Part shown: one piece after another, positions 147 to 64,000 of the stretch
How positions within the stretch are numbered: the stretch's first letter is position 1
Layout: each line of letters starts with the position of its first letter
Assembly (NCBI GenBank): GCA_021462855.1
Contig: JAJTXQ010000041.1
Coordinates: forward strand, 43,031-107,030
Origin: Dehalococcoidia bacterium
GTDB taxonomy: Bacteria; Chloroflexota; Dehalococcoidia; DSTF01; JACRBR01
Direction of reading: 5' to 3'
Length of the DNA stretch: 64,000 bases
Position numbers and translations under genes: made by a program
Notes under the pieces: generated by a model
The model's input: only the letters and a program-made list of their open reading frames with translations
The model's database searches: none
What the model was told of the DNA's origin: nothing

Positions 147-207
147 CGTTCGGCGGCGCGATTTCCGCCGAACGGCCCCCCGCGCCGCTTGCTAGAGTGG
201 ATCTGCG

Positions 208-696
208 ATGGTGACGAGCGGCGGGGACGCGCCCGACTTCACGCTGCCGGGGCTGGATGGCCTGGACTACGCGCTGCACGAGGCGCGCGGCAAGGGACCG
301 GTGTTGCTGGCGATCTGGCAGGCCGGATGCGGCACGTGCCGGCTCGCGGCGCCGTACCTCAACCGCCTGCACGGCGCGTACGAGAACCTGGGCTGGTCGT
401 TCTGGGCGATCGCGCAGGACGGCGCCGAGCGGGCGCGCGAGTTCGTGCGCGCGCATGACTTCCGGCCCACGGTGCTGATCGATGCGCCGGCGCTCGCCGT
501 ATCGGACGCCTACGACCCGGACGCAACGCCGACGCTCTACCTCATCGAGCCGGGGCAGGGCGTGACGGTCGAAAGCGGCGGATTTGACAAGGAAGCGCTG
601 AACGAGATCTCGCGCCGCATCGCAGCGTATTCCGGGGCGGAGTACGTGGAGATCGCGCCGGCGGACGACGGCAATCCGCCCTACAAACCGGGTTGA
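208..696 (+). CDS. Thioredoxin-fold (redoxin/TlpA-like) protein
   Basis: 162 residues. A peroxiredoxin-like opening 'DAPDFTLPGLDG' (8-19) is followed by a CxxC redox motif C41-G-T-C44 and the cis-proline loop around T107-P108-T109, the three hallmarks of the AhpC/TSA-TlpA thioredoxin fold. There is no signal peptide or membrane anchor, so it is probably cytoplasmic. It likely acts as a thiol-disulfide reductase or atypical peroxiredoxin; the substrate cannot be told. There is no clear Shine-Dalgarno, and a TAGAGT hexamer ends 9 nt before the ATG, suggesting a very short leader. Confidence 0.8.
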   Translation: MVTSGGDAPDFTLPGLDGLDYALHEARGKGPVLLAIWQAGCGTCRLAAPYLNRLHGAYENLGWSFWAIAQDGAERAREFVRAHDFRPTVLIDAPALAVSDAYDPDATPTLYLIEPGQGVTVESGGFDKEALNEISRRIAAYSGAEYVEIAPADDGNPPYKPG

Positions 697-776
697 GGCC
701 CGCTGCACCGGTAGGCCGTGTGCCTGCGCGCTTCCTTGACGGCCTCCAGCGCCGCCGCGCGAAGTAGACGTAATGA

Positions 777-805
777 TTGACAGATGCGCCGGAAACAAAG
801 ACAAT
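777..805 (+). promoter_or_regulatory. Sigma70-type promoter of the patatin gene
   Basis: TTGACA (777-782), 17-nt spacer, GACAAT (800-805). The expected start is near 812 and leaves a 40-nt leader to the ATG at 855. An in-frame TTG at 777 is simply the -35 box. Confidence 0.6.
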
Positions 806-854
806 CGCCGGCACATTACTCCATGCAGAGGAGCGCCCCGCCAGAGGTGATGCC

Positions 855-1733
855 ATGCGGGAGTTGAAGCTGGGCCTCGCGCTCGGCGCAGGAGGCACGA
901 AGGGAGCCGCGCACGTCGGGGTGATGCGCGTGCTCGACGAGGCGGGGATCCGTGTCGACGCGGTCGCCGGCACGAGCATCGGCTCGCTGTACGGCGGGGC
1001 GTACGCCGTCGGACGGTCGTCCGAGGAGATGGAGGACGGCATCCGCACCTGCCCGCCGCAGGACGTGATCAACTTCTTCCGCCATCGCCTGAAGATCCGC
1101 CACAACAACCGCCTGGCGCGCCGCTTCTACGAGGCGCTGGCCGGCCACCGCATCGAAGACCTGCCGATCAAGTACGCGGCGACGGCGTCCGACATCGTCG
1201 AGAAGTCGCACGTGTTCCTCGACCGCGGCCCCCTCATCGACGCGATCGAGGCCAGCATCGCGATCCCCGTGATCGCGCGGCCGGTCGCGCACCAGGGGCG
1301 CTGGCTGCTCGATGGCGGCTTCTGGGACAGCGCGCCGGTCGACGCCTGCATGGCGCTCGGCGCCGATGTCGTCGTCTCGGTGGAGCTCGGGAACCCGGTG
1401 ACGCTTCCGGAGCGGATCCACCGGCCGGCCGCGTGGCTGGCGCGGCGGCTCGACTTCGTGGGGCTGCGGCACGCGCTCGCGGGCATCCCGTTCACCATCC
1501 ACGCGACGACGCAGTTGCACGAGCGCGGGCGCGCGGCGCACGTCGTCATCCGGCCCTCGCTGAAGGGCGGCGGCGCTTCGCCGTTCCAGATGGTCAGCTG
1601 CCTCGATGCGGGGATGGCCAGCGCCCGGGAGGCGCTGCCGGCGATCCGCGCGCTGCTCGCCGGCGAAGCGCCGGCCGCCGTCGCCGGGGAGTACGTCGCC
1701 ACGCCGCGCCTCGCGCTCGAACCGGGTACATAG
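855..1733 (+). CDS. Patatin-like phospholipase (RssA/YchK type)
   Basis: 292 residues. It shows the patatin catalytic layout: oxyanion glycine loop GAGGTKG (11-17), nucleophile elbow G39-T-S41-I-G43 and the dyad aspartate in the DGG motif at about D153. These enzymes hydrolyse acyl esters of lipids with a Ser-Asp dyad. Short bacterial single-domain members like this are cytoplasmic and mostly of unknown substrate. The ATG at 855 is chosen because AGAGGTG precedes it and the protein then starts right at the first beta strand. The frame is open further upstream, but that part covers the promoter. Confidence 0.85.
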   Translation: MRELKLGLALGAGGTKGAAHVGVMRVLDEAGIRVDAVAGTSIGSLYGGAYAVGRSSEEMEDGIRTCPPQDVINFFRHRLKIRHNNRLARRFYEALAGHRIEDLPIKYAATASDIVEKSHVFLDRGPLIDAIEASIAIPVIARPVAHQGRWLLDGGFWDSAPVDACMALGADVVVSVELGNPVTLPERIHRPAAWLARRLDFVGLRHALAGIPFTIHATTQLHERGRAAHVVIRPSLKGGGASPFQMVSCLDAGMASAREALPAIRALLAGEAPAAVAGEYVATPRLALEPGT

Positions 1734-1746
1734 CCCGTAGGGGTGA

Positions 1747-1760
1747 AATTGACGTCAATT
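1747..1760. promoter_or_regulatory. 14-bp perfect palindrome over a -35-like box
   Basis: AATTGACGTCAATT is a perfect inverted repeat. It contains TTGACG (1749-1754) and lies 13 nt after the patatin stop, upstream of the 62-residue gene. A TGTAAC hexamer sits at 1775-1780, but the 20-nt spacing is long for sigma70. It is a plausible operator; no known regulator is assigned. Confidence 0.4.
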
Positions 1761-1832
1761 CGGGGCGTTCGGCCTGTAACAACCGGCCGGGCGCTGCGTT
1801 AGGGTCTTTGGCGCTTCGCACCACGAGCCCCC

Positions 1833-1887
1833 GGCGGGATCCGTGGGAGTGGGTGCAAGCACCGCGACAGATTCCCGGATGCCCGCC
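1833..1887 (+). promoter_or_regulatory. Structured 5' leader of the 62-residue gene
   Basis: Bases 1833-1848 can pair with 1873-1887 in a stem of about 14 pairs with two single-base bulges (GGCGGG with CCCGCC, ATCCG with CGGAT, GGGA with TCCC). The stem encloses a smaller GGT/ACC hairpin at 1852-1863. It sits 27 nt before the ATG at 1915. I do not recognise it as a known riboswitch. Confidence 0.4.
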
Positions 1888-1914
1888 GATTCTGGAACTG
1901 ACGAAGGCTTTGAC

Positions 1915-35410: not shown

Positions 35411-35755
35411 TTGGACGACGGGCAACTGAAGCTTGTCATCATCATCGCGTCCGACCCCGACGCCGACAAGCTGATGAAGAAGCTCATCGAGCAGGGCTAT
35501 CCCGCCACCAAGGTGAGCAGCACCGGCGGGTTCCTCCGCAAGGGCAATGCGACCATCCTCTCCGGCGTCGACGCCAACGAGGTCGACCAGATCCTCGCGA
35601 TGGTGCGCATGGAGTGCTACGCGCGCACGGAGTACGTGCCCGTGCAGACGCTGCCGTTCTTCGGCGAGGGGTCGGTCGTGCAGGAGCCGATCGAGGTGCG
35701 CGTCGGCGGAGCGATCGTCTTCGTGCTGAACGTCGAGCGGTTCGAGAAGACCTAG
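35411..35755 (+). CDS. darA: Cyclic-di-AMP receptor, PstA/DarA family (PII-like)
   Basis: 114 residues from TTG 35411 with GGGAGGTG upstream. 'KLVIIIASDPDADKLMKKLI', 'YPATKVSSTGGFLRKGNATIL' and 'VQTLPFF' are DarA/PstA signatures; the Thr-Gly-Gly and Phe-Leu-x-x-Gly-Asn loop contacts c-di-AMP in known structures. It is a PII-like trimer and signal receptor. Its presence supports real c-di-AMP signalling in this organism, matching the riboswitch at 46.5 kb. The stop is shared with the converging gene (CTAG, 35752-35755). Confidence 0.9.
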   Translation: MDDGQLKLVIIIASDPDADKLMKKLIEQGYPATKVSSTGGFLRKGNATILSGVDANEVDQILAMVRMECYARTEYVPVQTLPFFGEGSVVQEPIEVRVGGAIVFVLNVERFEKT

Positions 35756-41135: not shown

Positions 41136-41239
41136 GAAAGGGCGCGGCTGCGCCTCTGCGCGTTCAGCCGCCGTCGCGTCGCCATTCCTCGGCTTGACAT
41201 CGTCCGCGCGGCGCAGGCCGAATGATGACCCAACGCTGC

Positions 41240-41245
41240 TATACT
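41240..41245 (+). promoter_or_regulatory. -10 box of mscL
   Basis: TATACT, 41 nt before the ATG; the leader carries CCAGGAGGGG (41271-41280). Confidence 0.5.
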
Positions 41246-41286
41246 CGCGGCACTTTCGTTTGAACGGAGACCAGGAGGGGAATGTC

Positions 41287-41691
41287 ATGCTCCAGGAATT
41301 CAAGGAGTTCATGCTGCGCGGGAATGTCATTGACCTCGCGATCGCGGTCGTGATTGGCGCCGCGTTCAAGACGGTCGTTGACACGTTCGTTTCGGGGCTC
41401 ATCACGCCGCTGATCGCGGCGTTCGGCGGCCAGCCCGACTTCTCGGCGCTGGACTTCACGATCAACGACAGCCGCTTCCTGTACGGCACGTTCCTGAACG
41501 CGGTGATCGCGTTCGTCATCGTCGGCGCGGTGCTGTTCTTCTTCGTGATCAAGCCGATGAACGAGCTGATCAAGCGCTCGCGCAAGGAGCCGCCGGCCGA
41601 CCCAACGGTGAAGAAGTGCAGCGAGTGCCTGAGCGAGATCCCGATCGACGCGCGGCGCTGCGCGTTCTGCACGTCGCAGCAGGCGGCCTAG
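41287..41691 (+). CDS. mscL: Large-conductance mechanosensitive channel with C-terminal zinc-ribbon-like knuckle
   Basis: 134 residues. MscL core 'MLRGNVIDLAIAVVIGAAFKTVVDTFVS', a periplasmic loop and TM2 'LNAVIAFVIVGAVLFFFVIKPMNEL'. It opens on membrane tension to release solutes during hypo-osmotic shock. The C-terminus ends in C-x2-C-x10-C-x2-C (KCSECLSEIPIDARRCAFC), replacing the usual charged helix with a probable zinc site. Confidence 0.93.
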   Translation: MLQEFKEFMLRGNVIDLAIAVVIGAAFKTVVDTFVSGLITPLIAAFGGQPDFSALDFTINDSRFLYGTFLNAVIAFVIVGAVLFFFVIKPMNELIKRSRKEPPADPTVKKCSECLSEIPIDARRCAFCTSQQAA

Positions 41692-46394: not shown

Positions 46395-46503
46395 GCCGGC
46401 ACGCGCACCGCCGGGCGTGCCCGGCGATCGAGGCAGGCGTGCCGGGCAATGCGCACCGCCTGCGGGATCAGCGGTCCGCTGCGCGAAGGAATTCCGGCGA
46501 GAA

Positions 46504-46533
46504 TTGACAGCCTGACGCGGCCGCGATTAGCAT
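46504..46533 (+). promoter_or_regulatory. Promoter of the c-di-AMP riboswitch and glucan operon
   Basis: Perfect -35 TTGACA (46504-46509), 18 nt, TAGCAT (46528-46533). The start is predicted near 46540, just before the aptamer. The stretch 46395-46503 shows nothing else. Confidence 0.75.
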
Positions 46534-46544
46534 GTCGTTATCAG

Positions 46545-46737
46545 AACGGCCGAATCTTCGTCACATCCTGGCGGAGGACGGGGGAACCGTTTACCGCGCC
46601 GAAGCCGGCGTAACCGGTCCTGTAGCGCCTTTGCGATGGGCCGGATGCTACGCTCGACGCGGTCGGGGTGAATCGCCCGGAAGGGCGTAGGGCAGGCTCT
46701 CCGGCCCGAATCCGTCAGCTAACCCCGTAGGCCACCG
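46545..46737 (+). promoter_or_regulatory. Cyclic-di-AMP riboswitch (ydaO/yuaA class)
   Basis: All conserved blocks of the ydaO/yuaA aptamer appear in order: GGCCGAATC (46548 on), GGGGGAACCG (46581-46590), GGGGTGAATC (46665-46674), a GTAGGGCAGG block (46687 on), and the diagnostic CCCGAATCCGTCAGCTAACC (46705-46724) followed by CCGTAGGC. The ends GGCC (46548-46551) and GGCC (46730-46733) close the P1 helix. It is long (about 190 nt) because of a GC-rich insert near 46600-46660. Known members bind c-di-AMP and turn expression off by termination, and an intrinsic terminator sits 28 nt downstream. It controls the glucan operon. Confidence 0.93.
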
Positions 46738-46761
46738 AGAGAGACGTTGCCCCCTGGCACG

Positions 46762-46789
46762 GCCCGGGCGAACGCCTCCGGGCTTTTTT
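46762..46789 (+). terminator. Riboswitch expression-platform terminator
   Basis: Stem GCCCGG (46762-46767) / CCGGGC (46778-46783) with an extra GCG/CGC pair set in the loop, followed by six T (46784-46789). It lies between the aptamer and the first gene. Confidence 0.85.
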
Positions 46790-46821
46790 GTACCCGCGCG
46801 GAGCCTGAGGAGGATGCGGCA

Positions 46822-48063
46822 ATGTACGGCACGCTCGCCATTTCCCATCGCGCGCTCGATGACCTGACCGAGGCGGCAGGCGACGACGCGATCGACGAGC
46901 TGCGCACGCTGGCGCGGCCGCTCGAGGGGCTGCGGGTGCTGAACCTGAGCGTCACGGCGTTTGGCACCGGCACGGCGGAGCTGCTCAACTCGTCGGTGCC
47001 GCTGCTCACCGACCTTGGCCTCGACTGCCACTGGCAGGTCGTGCGCGCGCCCGAGGATACGTTGTCCGTCACCCGCGCGATGTACCAGGCCATGGCGGGC
47101 ACGAACGTCACATGGACGCCGGACATGACGGACCGGTGGCTGCGTTACGCGGAGATGAACGCCGCGCTGCTGACCGAGCCGTTCGACATCGTCATCGTCC
47201 ACGACCCGCAGCCGGCGGCGCTCCGTTCGTATGTCGAGGGCGTGCCGGACACGCGCTGGCTGTTCCACTCGCACCTGGACCTGTCTTCTGCGCAGGAGGA
47301 CGTGTGGCTGCTCGTGCGGCGGCACATCGAGCGGTACGACGGCGCGATCTTCGAATCGCCGTCGTTCACGCGCGCCGACGTGAACGTGCCGACGTACATC
47401 GTGCCGCCGGCGATAGCCCCGACGGGCCCGCGCAACATGCCGCTGCCCGACGACGTGGTGCGGACGATGCTCGAGCGCCACGGCATCGACCCGGAGCGGC
47501 CGATCGTCTGCCAGGTGTCGCCGTGCGACCCGGGAAGCGACCTGCTCGGCGCGGTCGACGTGTACGCCGCGGCGCGCGAGCGGGTGCCGGGCCTGCAGTT
47601 CGTGCTGCTGCTGACGACGGAGCCCGCCGACCCGCGGGCGCGCGGCTGCTACGACGAACTGGCGCGCCGCTCGGCCGAGGACCGCGGACTGTTCGTCCTG
47701 AGCATGGGAAACGAGGTCGGGAACGTGGAGCTGAACGTGGTCCAGCGTGCTGCCGACGTGGTGATCCAGCGCGGCCTGGGCAAGGGCTTCGGCATGTGGG
47801 TCAGCGACGCGATGTGGAAGCAGCGGCCGGTCATCGTGTGTCCGCATGCTGGCCTGCAGGAGCAAGTGGTCGATGGCGAGACCGGCGTCATCGTGGAGAC
47901 GCAGGAGCAGTTCGCCGCCGCGATCGTCGGTCTGCTCGGCGACCCTGGCCGCGCGCGGCAACTCGGCGCAGCCGGCCGCCGCCGCGTGCAGCAGCGGTTC
48001 ATGATCACGCGCTATCTGCGCGACTATCTGCGCATCCTCGGCGAAATGCACAGGAGCGCCTGA
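46822..48063 (+). CDS. TreT-like glycosyltransferase paralogue with lost catalytic residues
   Basis: 413 residues; GAGGAGG lies 9 nt before the ATG. It is a GT-B (GT4) protein collinear with the next gene: 'LNLSVTAFGTGTAELLNSSVPLL', 'VIVHDPQPAAL', 'VGNVELNVVQRAADVVIQR', 'RYLRDYLRIL'. Where the neighbour has SRFDPWKD (Arg and Lys that grip the sugar-nucleotide phosphates), this protein reads S233-P-C-D-P-G-S-D, so Arg is Pro234 and Lys is Ser239. The E-x7-E motif is K321...D329. It is probably not catalytic; a regulatory or scaffold partner of the intact TreT is the simplest idea. First gene behind the c-di-AMP riboswitch. Confidence 0.85.
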   Translation: MYGTLAISHRALDDLTEAAGDDAIDELRTLARPLEGLRVLNLSVTAFGTGTAELLNSSVPLLTDLGLDCHWQVVRAPEDTLSVTRAMYQAMAGTNVTWTPDMTDRWLRYAEMNAALLTEPFDIVIVHDPQPAALRSYVEGVPDTRWLFHSHLDLSSAQEDVWLLVRRHIERYDGAIFESPSFTRADVNVPTYIVPPAIAPTGPRNMPLPDDVVRTMLERHGIDPERPIVCQVSPCDPGSDLLGAVDVYAAARERVPGLQFVLLLTTEPADPRARGCYDELARRSAEDRGLFVLSMGNEVGNVELNVVQRAADVVIQRGLGKGFGMWVSDAMWKQRPVIVCPHAGLQEQVVDGETGVIVETQEQFAAAIVGLLGDPGRARQLGAAGRRRVQQRFMITRYLRDYLRILGEMHRSA

Positions 48064-49356
48064 GTGCTCGGCTCCGTCCCCACCACACCAAAGTCGTTCG
48101 AAGACTACCGCCCGGTGATCGGCGACGAGCGCACGGAGGAGATCCTCGCGCTGGCGGCGCTGCTGCGCGGCGCGCGCGTGCTGCACGTCAACGCGACGGC
48201 GTTCGGCGGCGGCGTCGCCGAGATCCTCGGCACGATGGTGCCGCTGATGAACGACATCGGCCTTGCCGCCGATTGGCAGGTGATCAAGGGAGCCGACGAA
48301 TTCTTCAACGTCACGAAGGCGATGCACAATAGCCTGCAGGGCATGTACTACGACTGGACGCCCGAAGCGCGCAACATCTGGCTCGAATACAACCGGCTGA
48401 ACGCCGAACTGTTCGATGACAGCTACGACTACGTTGTGATCCACGACCCGCAGCCGGCCGGCATCCTGGGGCTGGTCGACGAGATGCGCGGGACGCACCA
48501 CGGTAAGTGGGTGTGGCGCTGTCATATCGACCTGACCGATGCGCAGGCGGAGGTTTGGGACATCCTGCGCCCGCACGTCGAGCGGTACGACGGCGCGATC
48601 TTTACGCTGCCCGACTATGTGAAAGACGATCTGCACGGGCCGACAGTGTTCTGCGTGCCGCCGGCGATCGACCCGCTCAGCCCGAAGAACGTCGACCTGC
48701 CGATGGAGACGGTGCACGAGATCCTGCGCAGGTACGGCGTCGATCCGGACCGGCCGATGATCACGCAGATCTCCCGTTTCGACCCGTGGAAGGATCCGCT
48801 CGGCGTGATCGATGTCTATCGCGCGCTGAAGCGCGCAGTCCCCGAGCTGCAACTGGTGATGGTGGCATCGATGGCCAGCGATGACCCGGAGGGGTGGGCG
48901 TGGTACGAACGCACCGTCCGCCGGGCCGGCGAGGACTTCGATATCCACATCCTGTCGAATCTCAACGGCGTGGGGAACGTCGAGGTGAACGCGTTCCAGC
49001 GTGCGGCGCGCGTGGTGATCCAGAAGTCGACGCGCGAAGGGTTCGGGCTCGTAGTATCGGAGGCCTTATGGAAGGGACGTCCGGTGGTCGCGGGGAACGT
49101 CGGCGGGATCCCGCTGCAGATCGTGAACGGGAAGACGGGGTACCTGGTGAACAACGCCGAGGAGTGCATCGACCGTACGCTGTCGCTGCTGCAGTCGCCG
49201 GAGGAAGCCGACCGCATGGGCGCGCTCGGGATCGAGTACGTACGGGACAATTTCCTCACGACACGCTATCTTCGAGACTATCTGAATATCTTCCGCCAGC
49301 TGTCGGGGATCGCGCCCGCCGTGCGCGCACCCCAGCCCCAGCAGCTGCGCCACTAG
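48064..49356 (+). CDS. treT: Trehalose-synthase-type glycosyltransferase (TreT/GT4)
   Basis: 430 residues from a GTG directly after the previous stop. GT-B fold with 'VNATAFGGGVAEILGTMVPLM', 'VVIHDPQPAGIL', the donor-phosphate motif R238-F-D-P-W-K243-D-P-L-G and the nucleotide-sugar E325-x7-E333 (EGFGLVVSE). These match the trehalose glycosyltransferring synthase group, which makes trehalose from NDP-glucose and glucose reversibly. Supply of ADP-glucose by the next gene, glgC, fits. A glucosyl transfer to another acceptor is possible. Confidence 0.85.
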   Translation: MLGSVPTTPKSFEDYRPVIGDERTEEILALAALLRGARVLHVNATAFGGGVAEILGTMVPLMNDIGLAADWQVIKGADEFFNVTKAMHNSLQGMYYDWTPEARNIWLEYNRLNAELFDDSYDYVVIHDPQPAGILGLVDEMRGTHHGKWVWRCHIDLTDAQAEVWDILRPHVERYDGAIFTLPDYVKDDLHGPTVFCVPPAIDPLSPKNVDLPMETVHEILRRYGVDPDRPMITQISRFDPWKDPLGVIDVYRALKRAVPELQLVMVASMASDDPEGWAWYERTVRRAGEDFDIHILSNLNGVGNVEVNAFQRAARVVIQKSTREGFGLVVSEALWKGRPVVAGNVGGIPLQIVNGKTGYLVNNAEECIDRTLSLLQSPEEADRMGALGIEYVRDNFLTTRYLRDYLNIFRQLSGIAPAVRAPQPQQLRH

Positions 49357-49370
49357 ACACGGGGGTGTCG

Positions 49371-50660
49371 ATGAAGCGTGTCGTCGCGTTGATCCTCGCA
49401 GGCGGGCAGGGCGACCGGCTCAGCGTGCTTAGCGAGGAGCGGGCGAAACCCGCGGTGATCTTTGGCGGCCGCTACCGGATCATCGACTTCGCGCTCAGCA
49501 ACATCGTCAACTCCGGCGTCACCCGTGTCGGCGTGCTGACCCAGTACCGCCCGCGCTCGCTCAACGACCACATCGGCATCGGCCGTCCGTGGGACCTCGA
49601 CCGCTCGGGCGGTGGCGTGACGCTGCTGCAGCCGTACCTCGGCCGCGAGAGCTCGGACTGGTACCGCGGCACCGCCGACGCGATCTTCCAGAACATCTAC
49701 TTCATCGAGGAGACGCGCGCGGAGGTCGTGCTGATCCTCGCCGGCGACCACGTGTACAAGATGAACTACGATGAGCTGATCGCCACGCACCTGCGGAAAG
49801 GGGCCGACGTCACCGTCCCGCTCTACGAGGTGCCTGTCGCAGAGGCGCACCGGTACGGCGTCCTCACGACGGATGCCGATGACCGCATCATCGAGTTCGA
49901 CGAGAAACCCGACCGCCCGAAATCCAACCTGATCTCGATGGGCATCTACGTGTTCAACCGGCAGGTGCTGATCGATCAATTGATGGCCGACTCGATGCGC
50001 GACTCCACCCACGACTTCGGCCGCGACATCATCCCGGCGATGGTCGACGACCCGTCGATGAAGGTGTACGGCTCTCGCTTCGACGGTTACTGGCGCGATG
50101 TCGGCACGATCGAGTCGTACTACGACGGGAACATGGACCTGCTCGAGGATCTGCCGAAGCTCAACCTCTACGACCCCGACACGCGCATCCGCACGCGCGT
50201 CACCGGCTACCCGCCGGCGAAGATCGGCCGCCGCGCGTACATCTCGCGCTCGCTGCTCGACCTGGGGTGCATCGTCAACGGGCACGTCGAGCACTCGGTG
50301 CTGTCTCCGGGCGTGTACATCGAGGAGGGGGCGGTGGTGCGCGACTCGATCGTTTTCGACGATTGCCGTATCGAATCGGGAGCGATCGTCGAGCGCGCGA
50401 TCGTCGACAAGCAGACGGTGATCGACAAGAACGCGTACGTCGGCTACGGCGACGACTGGGCGCCGAATCACGAGCGCCCGGATATCGTCAACTGCGGCAT
50501 CACGATCATCGGCAAGCGCGCGCGCATCCTGCCGTACACGCGGGTCGGGCGGAACGTCGTCGTCGGGGCGAACGTCGAGGCGCAGGGCGTGGTCGATGGT
50601 ACGATCCCGAGCGGGACGACGCTGCGCGCGCCGGACAGGCACTTCCCGTACACGGTGTAG
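49371..50660 (+). CDS. glgC: Glucose-1-phosphate adenylyltransferase
   Basis: 429 residues. 'VALILAGGQGDRLSVLSEERAKPAVIFGG' region, 'RIIDFALSNIVNSG', 'GTADAIFQNI', 'AGDHVYKMNY', 'EFDEKPDRPKS', 'YWRDVGTIESYYDGNMDL', then a left-handed beta-helix C-terminal domain. It makes ADP-glucose, the committed step of bacterial glycogen synthesis and a donor for TreT-type enzymes. The ribosome site is weak (GGGGGTG). 14 nt after treT. Confidence 0.95.
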   Translation: MKRVVALILAGGQGDRLSVLSEERAKPAVIFGGRYRIIDFALSNIVNSGVTRVGVLTQYRPRSLNDHIGIGRPWDLDRSGGGVTLLQPYLGRESSDWYRGTADAIFQNIYFIEETRAEVVLILAGDHVYKMNYDELIATHLRKGADVTVPLYEVPVAEAHRYGVLTTDADDRIIEFDEKPDRPKSNLISMGIYVFNRQVLIDQLMADSMRDSTHDFGRDIIPAMVDDPSMKVYGSRFDGYWRDVGTIESYYDGNMDLLEDLPKLNLYDPDTRIRTRVTGYPPAKIGRRAYISRSLLDLGCIVNGHVEHSVLSPGVYIEEGAVVRDSIVFDDCRIESGAIVERAIVDKQTVIDKNAYVGYGDDWAPNHERPDIVNCGITIIGKRARILPYTRVGRNVVVGANVEAQGVVDGTIPSGTTLRAPDRHFPYTV

Positions 50661-50716
50661 CCGGTGCGCCGCCGGCGCATGGAGAAAGGACGGCCGGGGC
50701 CCGATCGCCGGGCCCG

Positions 50717-52417
50717 ATGATGAGCGAGAAGCAGGGCGCGTTCACCTTCGTGCTGCACTCCCATCTGCCGTATGCGCGCATGGCGGGCCGCTGGCCCCAC
50801 GGCGAGGAGTGGATCCACGAGGCCGCGACAGACACGTACCTGCCGCTCGTCGCGGCGCTCCACGACCTCGCGGCCGAGGGCGTGCGCTACCGCCTGACGA
50901 TCAGCATTACGCCGGTGCTCGCCGAGCAGCTGGCCGACCCCGACGTGCTGGCGAACCTCGAGGCATACCTCACGGACCTGCGGGATCGCGCGGCGGCGGA
51001 CATCGACCGGTTCGAGCGCGAAGGGGATTCGGCGCGCGCCGGCGGGGCGGCGTTCTACCGCGTGCGCTACGCATGGCTGCTCGACCAGCTGACGGCGCGC
51101 TTCGGGCGCGACATCATCGGCGCGTTCCGCTGGCTGCAGGACAACGGCTATGCGGAGCTTTCGACGAGCGCGGCGACGCACGGCTACCTGCCGCTGTTCG
51201 CGCGCGACTCGTCGATTCATGCGCAGGTGCGCACCGGGGTGCGGACATACGAGCGGCACTTCGGCCGCAAGCCGGCGTCGTTCTGGCTGCCGGAGTGCGC
51301 GTATCGCCCGGCGTTCATCGCCGGGGACGGCACGCGCAAGCCTGGCATCGAGGAGTTCCTCGCGGCGCAGGGCCTGACGACGTTCTTCGTGGAGACGCAC
51401 ATGGTGCTCGGCGGGCACCCGGTCGGCAAGGCCGCCGGCGATGTGGTGGGCCCGTACGGCGCGGTGCCGCGGCGCTACACCGTGCCGCACGCGCCCGAGC
51501 GCAAGGCGAACGGGCAGACGACGTTCGAGCCGTACTGGGTTGCGCGTCCCCGCGTCGCGGCGATCGCGCGGAACCTCGCGACGGGGCTGCAGGTGTGGTC
51601 GGCCGACCACGGCTACCCGGGCGACTTCGCGTACCGCGAGTTCCACAAGAAGGACGGCGAGTCAGGGCTGCGCTACTGGCGCGTCACCGGCGCGCGCGTG
51701 GAGCTCGGCGACAAGGCGACGTATGACCCGGCGCCGGCGCACGAACGCGCGGTCGCGCACGCGCGGCACTTCGCCGGCCTGGTCGAAGAACAGGTCGCGG
51801 GATACCACGCGTCGAGCGGCAACTACGGGCTCGTCAGCGCGGCGTACGATACGGAGCTGTTCGGCCACTGGTGGTTCGAGGGCACCGTCTGGATCAAGGA
51901 AGTGCTGCGCAATCTCGCGGCCAGCGAGGCCGTCGCGCTCACCGGCGCCGCCCAGTTCATCGCCGAGCACCCGCCCGGGGAGGTGATCGACCTGCCGGAG
52001 GGCTCGTGGGGGCAACAGGGCACGCACTTCACGTGGATGAACGCCGATACGCAGTGGATGTGGCCGGTGATCAACGACGCCCAGCGGCGGATCGAGGAGA
52101 TCGTCGCCCGGCACGGCGATGCGGCGGGCGATACGGCCGTCGCCCTGGCGCAGCTCGGCCGCGAGCTGTTGCTGCTCGAGTCGAGCGACTGGCCGTTCCT
52201 GGTCACCACGGGCCAGGCGCGCGCCTACGCGGAGCTGCGCTTCACGCAGCACGCGGAGCGCTTCGACGAGCTGGCGGCGCAGATCGAACGGGGCACGATC
52301 GACCGCGCGCTGGTCGATGATCTCTGTGAACGGGATAAGGTCTTCGCTGATATACAGATTCAAGACTTCGCCGCGCGCGAGGGCATGGCCGAGGCTCCGA
52401 GCGGGGCACTAGCATAA
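50717..52417 (+). CDS. GH57 1,4-alpha-glucan branching enzyme
   Basis: 566 residues. GH57 motifs in order: HSHLPY (motif 1), 'FWLPECAYRP' with the nucleophile-type E193, 'TTFFVETHMVLG', 'VWSADHGYPGD' and 'YDTELFGHWWFEG' with the acid/base D378, then the helical C-terminal domain ('WGQQGTHFTWMNADTQWMW'). This set matches archaeal and Thermus GH57 branching enzymes (TK1436 type), which create alpha-1,6 branches. Two ATGs in tandem (50717, 50720). Confidence 0.88.
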   Translation: MMSEKQGAFTFVLHSHLPYARMAGRWPHGEEWIHEAATDTYLPLVAALHDLAAEGVRYRLTISITPVLAEQLADPDVLANLEAYLTDLRDRAAADIDRFEREGDSARAGGAAFYRVRYAWLLDQLTARFGRDIIGAFRWLQDNGYAELSTSAATHGYLPLFARDSSIHAQVRTGVRTYERHFGRKPASFWLPECAYRPAFIAGDGTRKPGIEEFLAAQGLTTFFVETHMVLGGHPVGKAAGDVVGPYGAVPRRYTVPHAPERKANGQTTFEPYWVARPRVAAIARNLATGLQVWSADHGYPGDFAYREFHKKDGESGLRYWRVTGARVELGDKATYDPAPAHERAVAHARHFAGLVEEQVAGYHASSGNYGLVSAAYDTELFGHWWFEGTVWIKEVLRNLAASEAVALTGAAQFIAEHPPGEVIDLPEGSWGQQGTHFTWMNADTQWMWPVINDAQRRIEEIVARHGDAAGDTAVALAQLGRELLLLESSDWPFLVTTGQARAYAELRFTQHAERFDELAAQIERGTIDRALVDDLCERDKVFADIQIQDFAAREGMAEAPSGALA

Positions 52418-52429
52418 GTACAGGCGCCT

Positions 52430-52458
52430 CCCGGCGGCACGGGCGCCGTGCCGCCGGG
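52430..52458 (+). other. Intercistronic hairpin
   Basis: Perfect 11-bp stem CCCGGCGGCAC / GTGCCGCCGGG, loop GGGCGCC, no T-run. It lies between the first and second GH57 genes and is likely an mRNA stability or processing element. Confidence 0.5.
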
Positions 52459-52501
52459 CTGGCGCTCTTGCTCAATCGGGGGACTTCCGGGGGAGACGCA
52501 G

Positions 52502-53809
52502 ATGCCGACGATCTACTGGGGACAGCTCCTGCACTTCTACCAGCCGCCGATCCAGATCCCCGAGATCCTGCGCAAGGTCGTCGACGAGTCGTACCGGCCG
52601 CTGATCGATGTGTTCAAGCAGCAGCCGCACGCGAAGGCGTCGGTGAACATCAACGGCGTGCTGACGGAGATGCTCTTCGAGAGCGGCTACCAGGATGTGA
52701 TCGATGGCCTGCGCGACCTGGCCGAGCGCGGCCAGATCGAGTTCGTCGGGTCGGCGAAGTACCACGCGATCCTGCCGCTGATCAGCGAGGCGGAGCAGCG
52801 GCGGCAGATCCGCCGCAACCACCTGACGAACCGGCACTTCTTTGGCGATGCGTACCAGCCGAAGGGGTTCTTCCCGCCGGAGATGTGCTACGACCGCGCG
52901 ATCCTGGGCCCCGTGGTCGACTTCGGGCACGAGTGGGTGATCATGAGCGGGGTGGCGTGCAACGCCGACTGGCCGATCCACTCCGTCTACCACGCGAAGT
53001 CGAACGCGGGCGATGACGTGGCCGTGGTGTTTCGCGACGACGTGCTGAGTAACCGTATCTCGTTCCAGGACATCGACGGGCGCGGGTTCGTCGAGCACCT
53101 CCGGACGTCGCACCCGGACGGCGACGGCGACATCTACATCGTCACGGCGATGGATGCGGAGACGTTCGGGCACCACATCGAGAACTGGGACCAGCTGTTC
53201 CTCGCCGAGGCGTACGAGGCGGTGCAGCCGTACCAGGGCGTCGTGCAGGCGCGCCCGCTCGCGCAGAGCACGCGGCGGCTGCTGACGATGACGAGCGAGG
53301 CGACGGAGGGGCCGGACCACGTCACCTCGTGCACGATCTCCGAGATCGTGGCGCGGATGCCGCGCGACGCGGAGATCGACCCGAAGCCGGCATCGTGGAG
53401 CAGCACGCACGATGACCTGAACGCCGGCGTGCCGTATCCGCTGTGGAAGCAGCCGGGCAACTACATCCACAAGCTGCAATGGGAGCACGTCGACATCGCG
53501 CTCGAGCTCGTAGGCAAGGCGCAGGAGGTCGCGGACAACGCGACGAGCCAGCGCCACGCCGAGATCGCGCGCGGGTTGATGGACCCGGCGCTGCATTCGT
53601 GCCAGTTCTGGTGGGCGAGCCGCCGCCCGCACTGGGACATCAACATGATCGCGCGCGGGATGGACCAGCAGACCGATGTGGTCGTCAACGCGTTCCGCTC
53701 GATCAACCTGAGCGGCGCGCCCGAGGAAGTGAAGCGGGACGCCTACTACAAGGTCGTCGCCGCGCGCGACCTGCGCGCGAAGCTGCACGACCAGCTGTTC
53801 TGGGACTAG
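52502..53809 (+). CDS. GH57 family glycoside hydrolase/glucanotransferase
   Basis: 435 residues. 'QLLHFYQPPIQIPEILRKVV' carries motif 1 (H-x-Y-Q variant of HQP), 'GFFPPEMCYDRAIL' the catalytic Glu motif, and 'VTAMDAETFGHHIE' the catalytic Asp motif. It is shorter than the branching enzyme and lacks its C-terminal domain; closest in form to GH57 alpha-amylase or glucanotransferase members. It would trim or rearrange alpha-1,4-glucan. GGGGGAGACG before the ATG. Confidence 0.82.
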   Translation: MPTIYWGQLLHFYQPPIQIPEILRKVVDESYRPLIDVFKQQPHAKASVNINGVLTEMLFESGYQDVIDGLRDLAERGQIEFVGSAKYHAILPLISEAEQRRQIRRNHLTNRHFFGDAYQPKGFFPPEMCYDRAILGPVVDFGHEWVIMSGVACNADWPIHSVYHAKSNAGDDVAVVFRDDVLSNRISFQDIDGRGFVEHLRTSHPDGDGDIYIVTAMDAETFGHHIENWDQLFLAEAYEAVQPYQGVVQARPLAQSTRRLLTMTSEATEGPDHVTSCTISEIVARMPRDAEIDPKPASWSSTHDDLNAGVPYPLWKQPGNYIHKLQWEHVDIALELVGKAQEVADNATSQRHAEIARGLMDPALHSCQFWWASRRPHWDINMIARGMDQQTDVVVNAFRSINLSGAPEEVKRDAYYKVVAARDLRAKLHDQLFWD

Positions 53810-53829
53810 CGCCGGGCCGGGTACGCCCC

Positions 53830-55752
53830 ATGAAACGGATCAACGTCATCCTCGCGTTCCACGCGCAGGAGCCGCTGTGGGACTTCCCCGCCCGCGTGCT
53901 CGAGTCGCTGCGCGACGGCGACGTGCGTCGCGAGGCCGTCGGCAACGACAACTGGGTGCGCAAGCGCGCCGAAGCCGGCCGCGACATCTACGCCGACCTG
54001 CTGCGCGCGGGCGAGCGCCTCGGCGCGCCGGTGTGCCTGGAGGCGACGAACGAGGTGCTGATGCAGATCCGGCGCTTCATGCCGGATACGTTCGGGCGCC
54101 TCGGCGACGCGTATCGCGCCGGCGCGATCTACCCGGTGTACGGCAACGCGTTTCACACGCACATCGCGATGCTGACCAATGCCGAACTCGCCGACGAATT
54201 GCGCCTCAACCGCGAGTTCCTGCGCGACGTGCTCGGCGCGCCCGAACCGCGCCACCCCGGCGCCTTCCCGATGGAAGGCTCGATCGACGCGCACAAGCTC
54301 GCCGGATTCCGCGAAGCAGGCATGGAGTACGTCATCTTCCCGAACCTCAGCGAGCGCAAGGCGCGCTACCGCTTCGAGGGGCTGCGGGAGGGCGCAGACC
54401 CGGCGCACGGCGCGTTCACGATCGACGACGGGCTGATCGCGCTGCCGCGCCACTTCCCGATCTCCCAGGAGATCTGGCGGCCGATCACGAAGTGGCAGCC
54501 GAAGCGCCTCGTGCCGCAGGGCTACATCCTCGGCAAGTTCGCGGTGCTCGACGAGGAATACCGCGACGGGCGAACGGTCGACTTCCCGATTGGCCGCGAG
54601 CAGGCCGTCGATGAGTACGCGCGGACGCTGCGCGGTGCCGTCGCCGGCGCGCCGGATGGCGGGCTGCTGCTGTACATCCAGGACCTCGAGCTGATGGACT
54701 TCGGCGAGGAGGCGCTCGAGATCCTCGTCGAGGCGTGGGAGCGCGTGCGCGCCGAGCGCCGCGCCGAGCTGCGCTTCACGACGCCCGACGAGTACATCGA
54801 CGACCTGCGCGCATCGGGGCAGGCGCTGCCGCACATGTGGTTCCACCAGGCGTCCTGGGCGCCGGAGATCCGCCTCGTGCTGCGCAGCGATGGGCACTAT
54901 CCGCCGCTGCATGCCGGCGCGTTCCGCGGCGCCGACAGCGACACGGAGGTCTTTCGCCGATGGCCGTTCATCTTCTGGGAGCCGGGGCGGTTCATCGCCG
55001 ATGCGTTCCGCTCGCTGGTCGCGAGCTTAGGCCACGACCTGCGCATCCCGCTGTCAGGCGCGGAGCTCGATGAGCGGGGATACGACCTCGACCCGTCGCT
55101 GGACGACGGCACGAAGCTCGCGCTGCACCTGCGGGCGATGCAGCGGGCGTGCAACTTCGGCTGGCAGCCCGACGAGGCGCGGCACAAGTGGCCGTACATG
55201 CACGGACTGGCGATCTGCGAGATCCTTCGCGCGCAACTCGCGGCGGGCGAGGCCGGCGCGGATGCCATGCGGTCGTTCCGGCCGTTGCCGGAGCGCGCGT
55301 TGCGCGGCCTCGACCGCGTGCTTGAGGTGATCGTCGACACGCGGGTGGCGTACCTGCGGCGCGGCATCGAGCGGCTCGGGGAGCGCGCGGGCACGCCCGC
55401 CGAGCGCGCGGAGGCCGAAGCGCACCTGCAAGCGGCGGAGCGGCGGCGGCGGCGCGCGTCGGCGCTGGCGCGGCAACTTCGCGCCGAGAACGGCAAGTTC
55501 ATCACGAACTGCCCGGTCGACGGGCGCGCCGTCGCGCGGCTGCTCGCGTTACTGCAGGAGCATTGCCGCGAGGCGTACCTCGCCGTCAACGAGATCCAGC
55601 GCGCGTGGATGCGCATCCGCGACACCGACGGAATGATCGTGGAGATGTACGAGTACCTGTACGACCTCTATCCGCCGCTGTTCCCGCAGATCCTCCGCGA
55701 CCTGGCGACCGAGGATGAGGTGGCCGCCATCGAGGATCCGCCGCTGGCGTGA
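53830..55752 (+). CDS. Third GH57-like protein, long form
   Basis: 640 residues. N-terminal (beta/alpha)7-type domain with 'NVILAFHAQEPLWDFP' (H-x-Q motif 1), 'YPVYGNAFHTHIAMLTNAEL', 'HPGAFPMEGSIDAHKL' at the place of the Glu motif, and 'LLLYIQDLELMDFGEEALE' at the place of the Asp motif. The C-terminal 300 residues are helical ('RHKWPYMHGLAICEIL', 'NGKFITNCPVDGRAV'). It is divergent from the two GH57 genes upstream; the specificity, and even whether it is a hydrolase, is open. Last gene of the riboswitch operon. Confidence 0.75.
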   Translation: MKRINVILAFHAQEPLWDFPARVLESLRDGDVRREAVGNDNWVRKRAEAGRDIYADLLRAGERLGAPVCLEATNEVLMQIRRFMPDTFGRLGDAYRAGAIYPVYGNAFHTHIAMLTNAELADELRLNREFLRDVLGAPEPRHPGAFPMEGSIDAHKLAGFREAGMEYVIFPNLSERKARYRFEGLREGADPAHGAFTIDDGLIALPRHFPISQEIWRPITKWQPKRLVPQGYILGKFAVLDEEYRDGRTVDFPIGREQAVDEYARTLRGAVAGAPDGGLLLYIQDLELMDFGEEALEILVEAWERVRAERRAELRFTTPDEYIDDLRASGQALPHMWFHQASWAPEIRLVLRSDGHYPPLHAGAFRGADSDTEVFRRWPFIFWEPGRFIADAFRSLVASLGHDLRIPLSGAELDERGYDLDPSLDDGTKLALHLRAMQRACNFGWQPDEARHKWPYMHGLAICEILRAQLAAGEAGADAMRSFRPLPERALRGLDRVLEVIVDTRVAYLRRGIERLGERAGTPAERAEAEAHLQAAERRRRRASALARQLRAENGKFITNCPVDGRAVARLLALLQEHCREAYLAVNEIQRAWMRIRDTDGMIVEMYEYLYDLYPPLFPQILRDLATEDEVAAIEDPPLA

Positions 55753-60996: not shown

Positions 60997-61142
60997 CGGC
61001 GCCGGCGTTCCGCGCCGTCGTCGCGCAACGGCTGCGCGCGCTCGAGCGCGACGTGGCGGAAGTGCGGGCGCGCGTGAACGGGCTGCTGTTCGTCGTCGCC
61101 GGCGCCGTCGCGACGCAGGTGGTGTTGAGGCTGCTGGCATGA
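60993..61142 (+). CDS. Coiled-coil plus membrane-helix protein (49 aa)
   Basis: An amphipathic N-terminal helix ('RLRALERDVAEVRARVNGL') leads into one hydrophobic helix ('LFVVAGAVATQVVLRLLA'). This is the XhlA/hemolysin-like layout of small phage lysis proteins. ATGA overlaps at both ends. Confidence 0.5.
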   Translation: MTAPAFRAVVAQRLRALERDVAEVRARVNGLLFVVAGAVATQVVLRLLA

Positions 61143-62518
61143 TCATGAGCGCGTCATCGATCCCGCGCCTGCGCCCGTACCAGCGCCAGGCCGGACGCGC
61201 CGTGCTCGAATCGGTGCGGGGCGGCCATGGCCGCACGTTCAGCATCGAGATCGCGCGGCAGGGCGGCAAGAACGAGCTTTCGGCGCAGGTGGAGCTGTAC
61301 CTGCTGGCGCGCGCGGCAGCCATGCCGTGCGACGGCGTGAAGTGCGCGCCGACGTACCGGCCGCAACTGCGCGTGAGCATGCGACGGCTCCGCGACCGCA
61401 TCGCGCAGGCGGGGCTGCTGCGCCACGCGTCGATGCGCGAGCAGACGGTCGCGCTCGGCGCCGCGCGGATGCTGTTCCTGTCGGCCGAACCGTCGGCGAA
61501 CGTCGTCGGGCACACGGCGTCGCTGCTGCTCGAGGTCGACGAGGCGCAGGACGTCGACGCGGAGAAGTTCGACCGCGAGTTCCGCCCGATGGCGGCGACG
61601 GCAAATGCGACGACGGTGTTCTACGGCACCCCGTGGGGTGACCGCACGCTGCTCGAGCGCGCGAAACAGGCGCATCTCGAAGCGGCGCGGAGGGATGGCG
61701 TGCAGCGGCACTTCTCGTTCGACTGGGTGGAGGTGGCGCGCCACAACGCGGCGTACGGCGCCTACGTCGAGGCGGAGCGCGCGCGGCTTGGCGAAACGCA
61801 CCCGGTATTCCTCACGCAGTACTGCCTGAAGACGGTGCCGGGCGCCGGGCGGCTGTTCAGCCCGTCGCAGCTGGCGCAACTGGCGGGCGCGCACGGGCGG
61901 ATATCTATGCCGGAGCCGGGCGCCTGCTATGCCGCCGGCCTCGACATCGCCGGCGGCGACGGCGAGGGCGCGCCGCGCGCGAGCCGCGACAGCACCGTGC
62001 TGACGATCGGCCGCCTCGCGTTCCCCGAAGCGGGTGCGCTGGTGCAGGAGCCGCGCGTCGAGATCGCCGAGCACGTCGCCTGGTCCGGCGAGCCGCACGA
62101 GCGGCTGCTGCCGCGACTCGTCGACCTGCTGCGCGATGTCTGGCGCGTCGAGCGCGTCGCCGTCGATGCGACGGGCCTCGGCGAAACGATCGCGCGGATG
62201 CTCGCGGCCGCGCTCGGCGCCGCGCGCGTGGAGGCGGTGAAGTTCACGTCCGAGCGCAAGTCGGAGCTCGGGTTCGAGCTCATCGCGGCGCTCAACGGCG
62301 GCCGGCTGAAGGCGTATCGCGGCGACGGCTCGGCCGAGCATCGCGAGTTCTCGCGCCAGGCGGCAGCGGCGCGCGTCGCCTACCGCGCGAACAGCACGAT
62401 GAACTTCTACGTCGACGAGTCAGAAGGACACGACGATTACCTGGTGAGCGCGGCGTTGCTCGTGCGCGCGTCGCGCGGGCGGACGCGGCGCGTCGCGATG
62501 GGACGCGTGCGCGCGTGA
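61139..62518 (+). CDS. terL: Phage terminase large subunit
   Basis: 459 residues. ATPase domain with an adenine/Walker A region 'FSIEIARQGGKNELSAQ' (K44), Walker B 'LLLEVDEAQD' (D134-E135) and coupling segment 'TTVFYGTPWGDRTLLERA'. The C-terminal RNase H-like nuclease has 'AAGLDIAGGDG', 'VAVDATGLGETIARML' and a late acidic 'EGHDDYLVSAALL'. It packages DNA into the prohead and cuts it. The start overlaps the previous stop (ATGA). Confidence 0.9.
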   Translation: MIMSASSIPRLRPYQRQAGRAVLESVRGGHGRTFSIEIARQGGKNELSAQVELYLLARAAAMPCDGVKCAPTYRPQLRVSMRRLRDRIAQAGLLRHASMREQTVALGAARMLFLSAEPSANVVGHTASLLLEVDEAQDVDAEKFDREFRPMAATANATTVFYGTPWGDRTLLERAKQAHLEAARRDGVQRHFSFDWVEVARHNAAYGAYVEAERARLGETHPVFLTQYCLKTVPGAGRLFSPSQLAQLAGAHGRISMPEPGACYAAGLDIAGGDGEGAPRASRDSTVLTIGRLAFPEAGALVQEPRVEIAEHVAWSGEPHERLLPRLVDLLRDVWRVERVAVDATGLGETIARMLAAALGAARVEAVKFTSERKSELGFELIAALNGGRLKAYRGDGSAEHREFSRQAAAARVAYRANSTMNFYVDESEGHDDYLVSAALLVRASRGRTRRVAMGRVRA

Positions 62519-62565
62519 AGGCGCGCCACGCGCGAGCGTGCGCCCGGTGGAGGAGGGGCGGAACG

Positions 62566-62973
62566 ATGGTGGCGATCCGGAGAGAGGATATTGAGCATGC
62601 GCGGCGCGTGGCCGGCCGGCCGGCGCTGCGGCTCGTCGAGCCGCCGCCGCGGCGCGTGCGCGAGGACGCGCTGCCGGAACACACGGAGTACCGCGACACC
62701 GGCTGCGACCTGGCGTCGAGCTGCCTCGCCTGCCCGCTGGCGCGCTGCAAGCACGACGAGCCTGGCGCGCTCGCGCGGACGGCGATGGCGGCGCGCGACC
62801 GGGAGATCGCGTACCTGCGGCGGCGGCACGGCGCGCCGGTCGACATGCTCGCGCGGACGTACGGCCTCTCGCGCCGCACGATCTTCCGCATCATGCGGCG
62901 GGAGGAGGGCGGCGGCGACGGGCGCAAGCGCCGCCGCGCGGCCGCACAGGCGCACGAGGAGGCACGGCGATGA
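62566..62973 (+). CDS. Cys4 and helix-turn-helix phage protein
   Basis: 135 residues; GGAGGAGGGG precedes ATG 62566 (a GTG at 62515 overlapping the terL stop is the alternative). A compact cysteine cluster C47, C53, C56, C61 ('CLACPLARCKHDEPG') looks like a metal site, followed by a resolvase-type HTH 'DMLARTYGLSRRTIFRIMRRE' (about 92-113) and a basic tail. Placed between terminase and portal it could be a DNA-binding packaging factor (small-terminase-like) or a regulator. Confidence 0.65.
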   Translation: MVAIRREDIEHARRVAGRPALRLVEPPPRRVREDALPEHTEYRDTGCDLASSCLACPLARCKHDEPGALARTAMAARDREIAYLRRRHGAPVDMLARTYGLSRRTIFRIMRREEGGGDGRKRRRAAAQAHEEARR

Positions 62974-64000
62974 TCATCGACGAGATCCGCAACATGGACG
63001 CCGAGCGCATGCGGCGGTACGCCGAGCACCTGGCGTTCTACGGCGGCGAGCAATGGCCGGCGATGACGCGCCGCCAGCGGCGCCGCCTCGTGTTCAACTA
63101 CGCGCGGGCGATCATCGACAAGACAGCGTCATACCTGCTCAGCGGCACGAACATCGCCGTCGACCCCGCGGACGAGTCGCCCGCGGCGGCTCAGGCCGCG
63201 CGCGACGCCGAACGCGCGCTCGCCCGGGTGCACGACGAGAACCATCTCGACCAGCTCGACTTCGACACCGAGGTCGATGCCTCGGTGCTGGGCGATGGGG
63301 CGTACAAGGTGACGTGGGACGCCGGTGAGCAGCGCGTGCGCGTCACCGCGCCCGACGTGCAGGGGCTGTACGCCTGGTGGACCGGCGACGACGTCGCGCG
63401 CGTGTGGCGCGTCGCTTCGCGCTACCAGCTCGACGCGGAGGCGGCGGAGGCGCTGCACGGCATCGCGCCGAAGACGATGCGGCGGCGGGCCGGCGTGCAG
63501 CCGCGCCCCGTGGAGATCATCGAGGTGTGGACGGCGGCGCGCTTCGAGCTGTACGCCGGCGGCGCGCGCATCGACGAGCGCGAGAACCCGTACGGGTTCG
63601 TGCCGTTCGTGATCTTCCCGAACATCCGCGAGCCGAAGAAGTTCTGGGGCGTATCGGACCTCGTCGCGATCCGCGAGCCGCTGCGCGAGCTGAACCGCGC
63701 GCTGACGCAGCTCTCGATGATCCTGGAGCTGTCGGGCAACCCGATCGCCGTGCTGGAAAACGTCGCGGAGTCGCAGGACATCGCCGTCACGCCGGGCGCG
63801 GTGTGGGAGCTGCCGGAGCGCGCGCGGGCGTACCTGCTCGACCTGCTGCAGGGCGGCGGCGTGAAGCTGCACGCGGAGTACGTGGACCTGGTGTACCGGG
63901 CGCTGCACGACCTGGGCGAGTCGCCGCGGACGGCGTTCGGCGAGAACCGCGCCGGCCTGTCGGGCGTGGCGCTCAATGTCGAGCTGGACCCGCTGCTGAA
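62970..64000 (+). CDS. Phage portal protein, SPP1 gp6-like (partial, runs off the window)
   Basis: At least 343 residues. ATG 62970 overlaps the previous stop (ATGA). The opening 'YAEHLAFYGGEQWPAMTRRQ...NYARAIIDKTASYLL' and the later 'NPYGFVPFVIFPNIREPKKFWGVSDLVAIREP' and 'ELNRALTQLSMILELSGNPI' segments are typical of SPP1-type portals, which form the dodecameric DNA channel of the capsid. The C-terminus lies outside the window. Confidence 0.85.
   Translation, partial: MIIDEIRNMDAERMRRYAEHLAFYGGEQWPAMTRRQRRRLVFNYARAIIDKTASYLLSGTNIAVDPADESPAAAQAARDAERALARVHDENHLDQLDFDTEVDASVLGDGAYKVTWDAGEQRVRVTAPDVQGLYAWWTGDDVARVWRVASRYQLDAEAAEALHGIAPKTMRRRAGVQPRPVEIIEVWTAARFELYAGGARIDERENPYGFVPFVIFPNIREPKKFWGVSDLVAIREPLRELNRALTQLSMILELSGNPIAVLENVAESQDIAVTPGAVWELPERARAYLLDLLQGGGVKLHAEYVDLVYRALHDLGESPRTAFGENRAGLSGVALNVELDPLL

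Follow-up and report, generated by a model that had tools for sequence, protein, structure and literature searches.

Introduction

Riboswitches of the cyclic di-adenosine monophosphate (c-di-AMP) class, Rfam family RF00379, are known from the leaders of ydaO/kimA, ktrAB, kdpFABC, rpfA and nlpC, and in the extracts of published work consulted the named targets are ablA, cell-wall enzymes and the transport of potassium (K+) and solutes. They have been described near genes for 'synthesis and transport of osmoprotectants' (PMC7288161), and the survey of Nelson 2013, as related in PMC9960051, places them mostly before transporters in Bacillales and Clostridia and before cell-wall genes in Actinobacteria. 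Here we describe a member of this class in a stretch of 64,000 nucleotides (nt) from a Dehalococcoidia bacterium (assembly GCA_021462855.1, contig JAJTXQ010000041.1, positions 43,031-107,030), hereafter the window, whose draft genome, labelled G000, consists of 76 contigs with 97% completeness and 4.4% contamination. With good confidence we read the element as a c-di-AMP-class riboswitch in the leader of a predicted trehalose/alpha-glucan operon, likely acting as an OFF switch. Its likely role, judged from sequence, is the repression of trehalose (and glucan) synthesis by c-di-AMP, with ligand binding, the OFF direction and the product all being putative.

The locus resembles the described leaders in its end-to-end aptamer match, in a terminator-like hairpin and in the presence of the diadenylate cyclase CdaA in the genome, whereas the target here is a predicted trehalose/glucan operon. 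A parallel is offered by Dehalobacter sp. CF, a bacterium of another phylum. There a tandem Na+/c-di-AMP riboswitch precedes ablA, so that an osmolyte-synthesis gene as target and the OFF mode (putative in the window) are common to both, while the Dehalobacter system differs in its osmolyte, N-acetyl-beta-lysine, and in its tandem aptamers (PMC9337991). Compared with the TreT pathway (PDB 2x6q, 2xa2, 6zj4), the second TreT-type protein of the operon, TreT b, keeps the same active-site residues as 2x6q, but its partner here is TreT-like a, a paralogue from which these residues are missing, and the operon adds glgC and GH57 genes. No report of a c-di-AMP riboswitch on trehalose genes was found in the literature searched, whose scope did not extend to the surveys of Nelson 2013 and Block 2010, and a trehalose target is not reported in the available extracts of PMC10117811, PMC9337991, PMC7288161, PMC8886135, PMC6753628, PMC5919688, PMC9960051, PMC8517857, PMC10243994 and PMC3890552. 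The aptamer class is already known; the trehalose/glucan operon as its target is the new element as far as no report was found, and priority is not claimed. The comparison below indicates that c-di-AMP riboswitches recur before predicted trehalose-synthesis genes, beyond ion/solute transport and cell-wall targets.

The riboswitch and the operon behind it

In a covariance search, the whole window contains a single c-di-AMP riboswitch, at 46538-46748 (+), with 89.3 bits and an E-value of 1.4e-19, far above the RF00379 gathering score of 38 bits and inside the region 46500-46800, where an earlier note made from the letters of this DNA had recognised a ydaO/yuaA aptamer with all conserved blocks. 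The alignment bears that recognition out, spanning the entire model (1-134) with all nested helices and no pair flagged as non-standard. The spacing between the GGGAACC and GGGGUGAAUC blocks is 69 nt vs 1 nt in the RF00379 model, and a computed fold predicts one long hairpin for these 69 nt. A chance match is ruled out by the score together with the recurrence of the element in relatives. The aptamer is flanked by a predicted promoter, TTGACA-18-TAGCAT, and by a predicted terminator-like stem followed by a T-run (Table 1), both in the order that the note had given. By itself the consensus scan is no evidence for either (one promoter found vs 0.9 by shuffles; four terminators vs 3.2). The promoter pattern TTGACA-18-TANNNT precedes the first gene at all 11 tandem TreT loci compared, namely the 12 loci introduced below except the one of G041, and 2200 mononucleotide shuffles of the same slices never produced it.

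Downstream of the terminator follow six genes on the same strand, the widest intergenic gap being 84 bp and the last gene ending at 55752. They had been read as two TreT-type glycosyltransferases, glgC and three GH57 proteins; the identities of TreT b, glgC and GH57 stand, whereas the first TreT-type protein is without catalytic residues. The TreT_GT1 domain is present in both TreT-type proteins. TreT b retains E325, E333, R238, K243 and H127 (own numbering), and its score of 494 bits below the cut-off of 775 bits for NF041139, the Thermococcales TreT, makes it a homologue rather than that equivalog. GlgC passes the NCBIfam cut-offs (NF003670, 493 vs 470 bits; TIGR02091, 426.8 vs 424.9 bits). 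The GH57 branching enzyme reaches about 462 bits against the GH57 structures 5wu7 and 3n8t and stays under the NCBIfam cut-offs of NF041133 (539.5 vs 1000 bits) and NF041566 (490 vs 920 bits), and the nearest solved structure of the second GH57 protein is a 4-alpha-glucanotransferase at 41 bits. A Pfam search of the third GH57-type protein itself gave no match, PF03065 included; PF03065 was found in 12 of its 120 listed relatives, those 12 having 46-58% identity.

The c-di-AMP and osmotic setting described in the note was recovered as well, DarA and MscL being found in the window and CdaA in the G000 genome (TIGR00159, 228.4 vs a cut-off of 188.8 bits), where a YbbR/CdaR-type gene follows it.

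Table 1. Positions of the predicted leader elements, operon genes and osmotic-setting genes in the window.
Feature	Position	Strand	Basis
DarA	35429-35752		PF06153
MscL	41194-41688		Pfam search
Sigma-70-type promoter, TTGACA-18-TAGCAT (predicted)	46504..46533	+	consensus scan; shared spacing in 11/11 loci
c-di-AMP (ydaO/yuaA) riboswitch aptamer with long extra hairpin	46538..46748	+	RF00379, 89.3 bits
Extra hairpin within aptamer (predicted fold)	46593..46663	+	corresponding stretch also long in the G003 copy
Terminator hairpin, then T-run (predicted)	46761..46784	+	terminator scan, fold
TreT-like protein a, 413 amino acids (aa), probable pseudoenzyme (GT4 active-site residues gone)	46822..48063	+	PF21269, 109 bits
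TreT b, trehalose glycosyltransferring synthase, 430 aa	48064..49356	+	PF21269, 177 bits; NF041139, 494 bits; 2x6q, 446 bits
glgC, glucose-1-phosphate adenylyltransferase, 429 aa	49371..50660	+	NF003670, 493 bits; TIGR02091, 426.8 bits
GH57 1,4-alpha-glucan branching enzyme, 566 aa	50717..52417	+	PF03065, 107 bits; PF09210 (BE_C), 92 bits
Second GH57 protein, 435 aa	52502..53809	+	PF03065, 116 bits
Third GH57-type protein, 640 aa	53830..55752	+	via relatives carrying PF03065

Tandem TreT loci of relatives

Twelve tandem TreT loci, the window and L064-L074, were searched with all Rfam models. The core of TreT-like a, TreT b and glgC recurs across the order, with the exceptions that the G008 stretch examined has no glgC and the G007 contig ends; in the G041 locus the first TreT is a distant copy (38% identity), and in the G017 locus it is split over two frames. 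RF00379 precedes TreT-like a at two of the 12 loci, the window and that of G003 (68.1 bits), a genome of another genus in the same family with an orthologous six-gene operon behind its riboswitch. The riboswitch-operon pair thus recurs in a second genus but is not general, and the riboswitch as a general trait of TreT operons is rejected. The two aptamers, of 211 nt in the window and 214 nt in G003, are identical in 132 of 216 aligned columns. From the end of the -10 element through the start codon the two riboswitch leaders measure 291 and 290 bases vs 45-202 at the nine others. Since TTGACA-18-TANNNT is also kept in the nine leaders without riboswitch, the promoter is probably old; only in the window and G003 does an aptamer lie between it and the gene. 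That the TreT riboswitch was gained once is favoured because G000 and G003 are sisters in the GlgC tree (97/94) and in the concatenated tree (95.5/91). TreT b in a 67-row TreT tree (100/96) also favours a single gain, an 11-row TreT b tree leaves the point undecided, and TreT-like a in the 67-row tree disagrees, grouping G003 with G002 and G005 (98/86).

Riboswitches before otsA and otsB

Across the order (18 genomes) RF00379 is present in 18 of 18, with 59 sites listed and 58 of them above the cut-off, and OtsA exceeds its cut-off in nine genomes. In the family f1, OtsA is above the cut-off in five of eight genomes, in all of which a riboswitch lies 100-180 nt ahead of the GT20 domain and none lies before TreT. 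The two genomes with a TreT riboswitch, G000 and G003, have no OtsA above the cut-off (best match in G000 28.3 bits vs 32.5), and in the eighth genome, G001 (84% complete), neither OtsA nor TreT was detected. In G002 and G005 the riboswitch lies beyond the TreT operon, on the opposite strand, before an OtsA-OtsB fusion; the G002 protein combines PF00982 and PF02358 and scores 942 bits with NF011071 (cut-off 634), which identifies a bifunctional OtsA-OtsB. We propose that within f1 the switch sits on the trehalose enzyme available, OtsA-OtsB if present and TreT if absent. The riboswitch appears to change gene as the pathway enzyme changes, the regulation being kept and the enzyme swapped.

The link extends to the class, where, among 148 relatives, the riboswitch is present in at least 62 and OtsA above its cut-off in 84. 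At least 17 riboswitches, in at least 14 genomes and at least eight families, have a GT20 domain at most 1 kb downstream on the same strand, a lower bound obtained from the matches listed with strict filters and joined by position; G057 C455, where the riboswitch is followed by another gene and OtsA stands 2 kb on, was left out. Random placement would give 0.012 linked pairs vs 13 held by ten genomes chosen because linked. OtsB stands between riboswitch and OtsA at G009 C172 and G011 C22, and a 171-aa frame takes this place in G091. OtsA proteins linked to a riboswitch occur in two clades that are deeply separate, one on either side of a 100/100 split, and the riboswitch-OtsA link has therefore probably arisen more than once. 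It is likely that the osmotic signal has been wired to trehalose several times in this bacterial group. At one of the class sites, G011 C66:465 (L126), the riboswitch precedes an apparent OtsA fragment (42.7 bits, profile positions 2-139), a case of regulation outliving its gene or of an assembly error.

In a sample of the phylum (201 genomes) RF00379 was found in 32 and TreT_GT1 above its cut-off in 54. OtsA was searched in eight of the 201 and found in five, being preceded by a riboswitch in G174 C35, G256 C121 and G227 C62. A riboswitch also lies about 320 nt before a TreT-like domain at G227 C51, with OtsA next, and at G300 C491. A second riboswitch of G300 C491, at 1715-1913 (-), stands directly before a GH57/DUF3536 protein at 165-1670 (-) (L159), and both G300 riboswitches are thus on one small contig. 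The tie between c-di-AMP and trehalose/glucan synthesis that the earlier note had drawn gains independent support from these riboswitches before otsA, otsB or GH57 genes in relatives; of its two outcomes, carbon storage or trehalose tied to the osmotic signal, the comparison favours trehalose, and storage glucan less.

A switch governing glucan storage, in which adenosine diphosphate glucose (ADP-glucose) from GlgC and GH57 branching would be central, glycogen synthase would be encoded elsewhere and TreT would form a side branch, would account for the presence of three GH57-type genes and one glgC among the six, for GlgA (GT5, 220.7 bits) encoded away from the operon at C35 of G000, and for the riboswitch directly before the GH57/DUF3536 protein in G300. 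However, at least 17 other sites of the class have otsA near the riboswitch and no glucan gene, and no riboswitch stands directly before glgC or GH57 in the 11 operon loci L064-L074; we consider glucan storage an unlikely target.

Direction of the switch and proposed mechanism

Strict terminators lie behind 15 of the 66 aptamers scanned (59 of the order, three of G041 and four of G024), the window's among them, vs 0.2 expected by mononucleotide shuffles; among the OtsA/OtsB sites scanned they occur at three of 13. In the window the aptamer ends at 46748 and the stem starts at 46761. Such separate elements are read as an OFF layout, which was confirmed in vitro for another member (PMC9337991). 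The B. thuringiensis kdp riboswitch terminates on c-di-AMP, the level of which drops under K+ limitation (PMC6488665), and OFF mode is also given for tested members of the class in PMC9960051, which in addition describes a c-di-AMP riboswitch that likely acts on translation. An ON switch, with c-di-AMP binding favouring read-through, has nothing specific in its favour, although the sequence does not show direction; against it stand the separate elements of the window and the OFF action of the tested members, and we hold it to be very improbable.

As an OFF switch on trehalose synthesis the leader would work as follows. At high c-di-AMP the aptamer, with its ligand bound, would permit terminator formation, and transcription would stop. 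Given the OFF layout and the fall of c-di-AMP under K+ limitation, a drop in c-di-AMP at low potassium or salt stress would allow transcription of the operon and release trehalose synthesis. GlgC would supply ADP-glucose, which TreT b would join to glucose, and ADP-glucose suits TreT because TreT accepts several nucleoside diphosphate glucoses (PMC11046441). TreT-like a, having lost its active site, would serve as a partner with a regulatory or structural role, while the GH57 enzymes would shape a glucan pool competing for, or feeding, the same glucose. Computed leader folds (-114.1 kcal/mol free vs -107.0 kcal/mol with the terminator forced) contain an antiterminator in the ligand-free state, and the terminator-forced fold restores P1 and the model's 3' hairpins, though not every model helix. 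These modelled folds fit weakly with two exclusive states.

Several observations count against this scheme. The antiterminator pairing is no better than in shuffles (172 of 500 as low), terminator pairing reaches at most 0.09 when ten aptamer pairs are forced, and the whole-leader fold is no better than its own shuffles (z -0.67). The fold argument is weak because the aptamer-terminator duplex does not rise above shuffles and the terminator pairing stays this low, and a strong antiterminator argument was dropped on the duplex and the z value. A strict-rule terminator was not found in G003 nor at ten of the 13 OtsA/OtsB sites scanned, and the riboswitch is missing at ten of the 12 tandem TreT loci. 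The exclusion between OtsA and TreT in f1 amounts, at n=7, to one chance in 21; as the two genomes with a TreT riboswitch probably form a sister pair (95.5/91), it may go back to one event. The f1 rule is broken in family f4, where TreT is present and OtsA above the cut-off in none of six genomes, and no riboswitch precedes TreT at the three tandem loci searched (G012, G015, G017). In G000 itself TreZ is present and another trehalose route is possible, so that TreT as the sole trehalose route of this genome was not upheld; neither of its two GH13 matches was recognised as TreY.

Part of this evidence would also suit an aptamer that is real yet idle or nearly so, one that came in recently between an old promoter and the operon and hardly affects expression, namely its presence at only two of 12 tandem loci, the G003 leader without strict-rule terminator, and a ligand-free fold strongly disfavouring the terminator with antiterminator pairing at shuffle level. 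Yet the conserved blocks are intact in both copies (89 and 68 bits) despite the 132 of 216 identical columns, and the window aptamer is followed by a terminator-like hairpin with a T-run, which makes idleness improbable in our view.

A TreT paralogue with lost active-site residues, a probable pseudoenzyme

The EX7E motif is described as essential in GT4 enzymes, one active enzyme having Asp as the first Glu (PMC9692976). In TreT-like a the two EX7E glutamates read K...D and the R...K pair reads P...S. The same changes dominate among its relatives, of which 1112 were found and 120, including the query, are listed: the first Glu is Lys in 115 and Arg in five of these 120, the second Glu is Asp, the Arg is Pro and the Lys is absent in all 120, and the His of HDPQP is retained in 118. 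These substitutions suggest that TreT-like a is probably a pseudoenzyme; its activity may instead be changed rather than lost, because an active GT4 enzyme with Asp for the first Glu exists (PMC9692976). The relatives from named genomes comprise five Dehalococcoidia, Chloroflexi or Chloroflexota metagenome-assembled genomes at 58-66% identity and one distant CPR2 sequence at 32%. Many of the named-source relatives among the 120 listed are annotated as trehalose synthase.

In the TreT tree (77 rows found, 67 used after removal of six fragments, L053, L073 twice, L076 and L082 twice, and of four second copies of included loci, L055 twice and L059 twice) TreT-like a is joined in one clade (100/99) by degenerate copies elsewhere and by the riboswitch-linked TreT-like genes of G174, G227 and G300, and the 49 other rows lie outside it. 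The degenerate copies have lost the residues partly or wholly, some (e.g. L080 and L162) retaining one or two. Riboswitch-linked rows are five of 18 in this clade vs none of 49 outside, a biased comparison, L158-L160 (G174, G227, G300) having been fetched for their riboswitch proximity; in G174 OtsA comes first, ahead of the TreT-like gene. The locus reveals a conserved, apparently inactive TreT paralogue. A wider reading, quite possible if short of probable, is that in Chloroflexota c-di-AMP is a dedicated trehalose repressor whose riboswitches were recruited repeatedly (two OtsA clades, OtsB, the TreT operon and TreT-like genes), moving to the replacement enzyme on loss of OtsA-OtsB, and that TreT-like a founded a conserved pseudo-glycosyltransferase clade, often under the same riboswitch, which would tune trehalose synthesis as partner of TreT or OtsA.

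Other riboswitch sites and neighbouring features

Of two further c-di-AMP riboswitches in G000, the first precedes a GT2-family gene and the second a small gene that has no Pfam match. Riboswitches stand before related frames at 13 sites, including L003 (G000 C30:64803-64938 -), and the Pfam-searched members of this group, L003 and L144, are GT2-family glycosyltransferases. At L001 1128-1448 (-) and L110 1995-2261 (-) the riboswitch precedes small paired-cysteine proteins, zinc-ribbon-like by eye, for which a Pfam search gave no match. At the far end of the window, 61139-64000 holds frames resembling by eye a phage terminase and portal, perhaps the end of a prophage.

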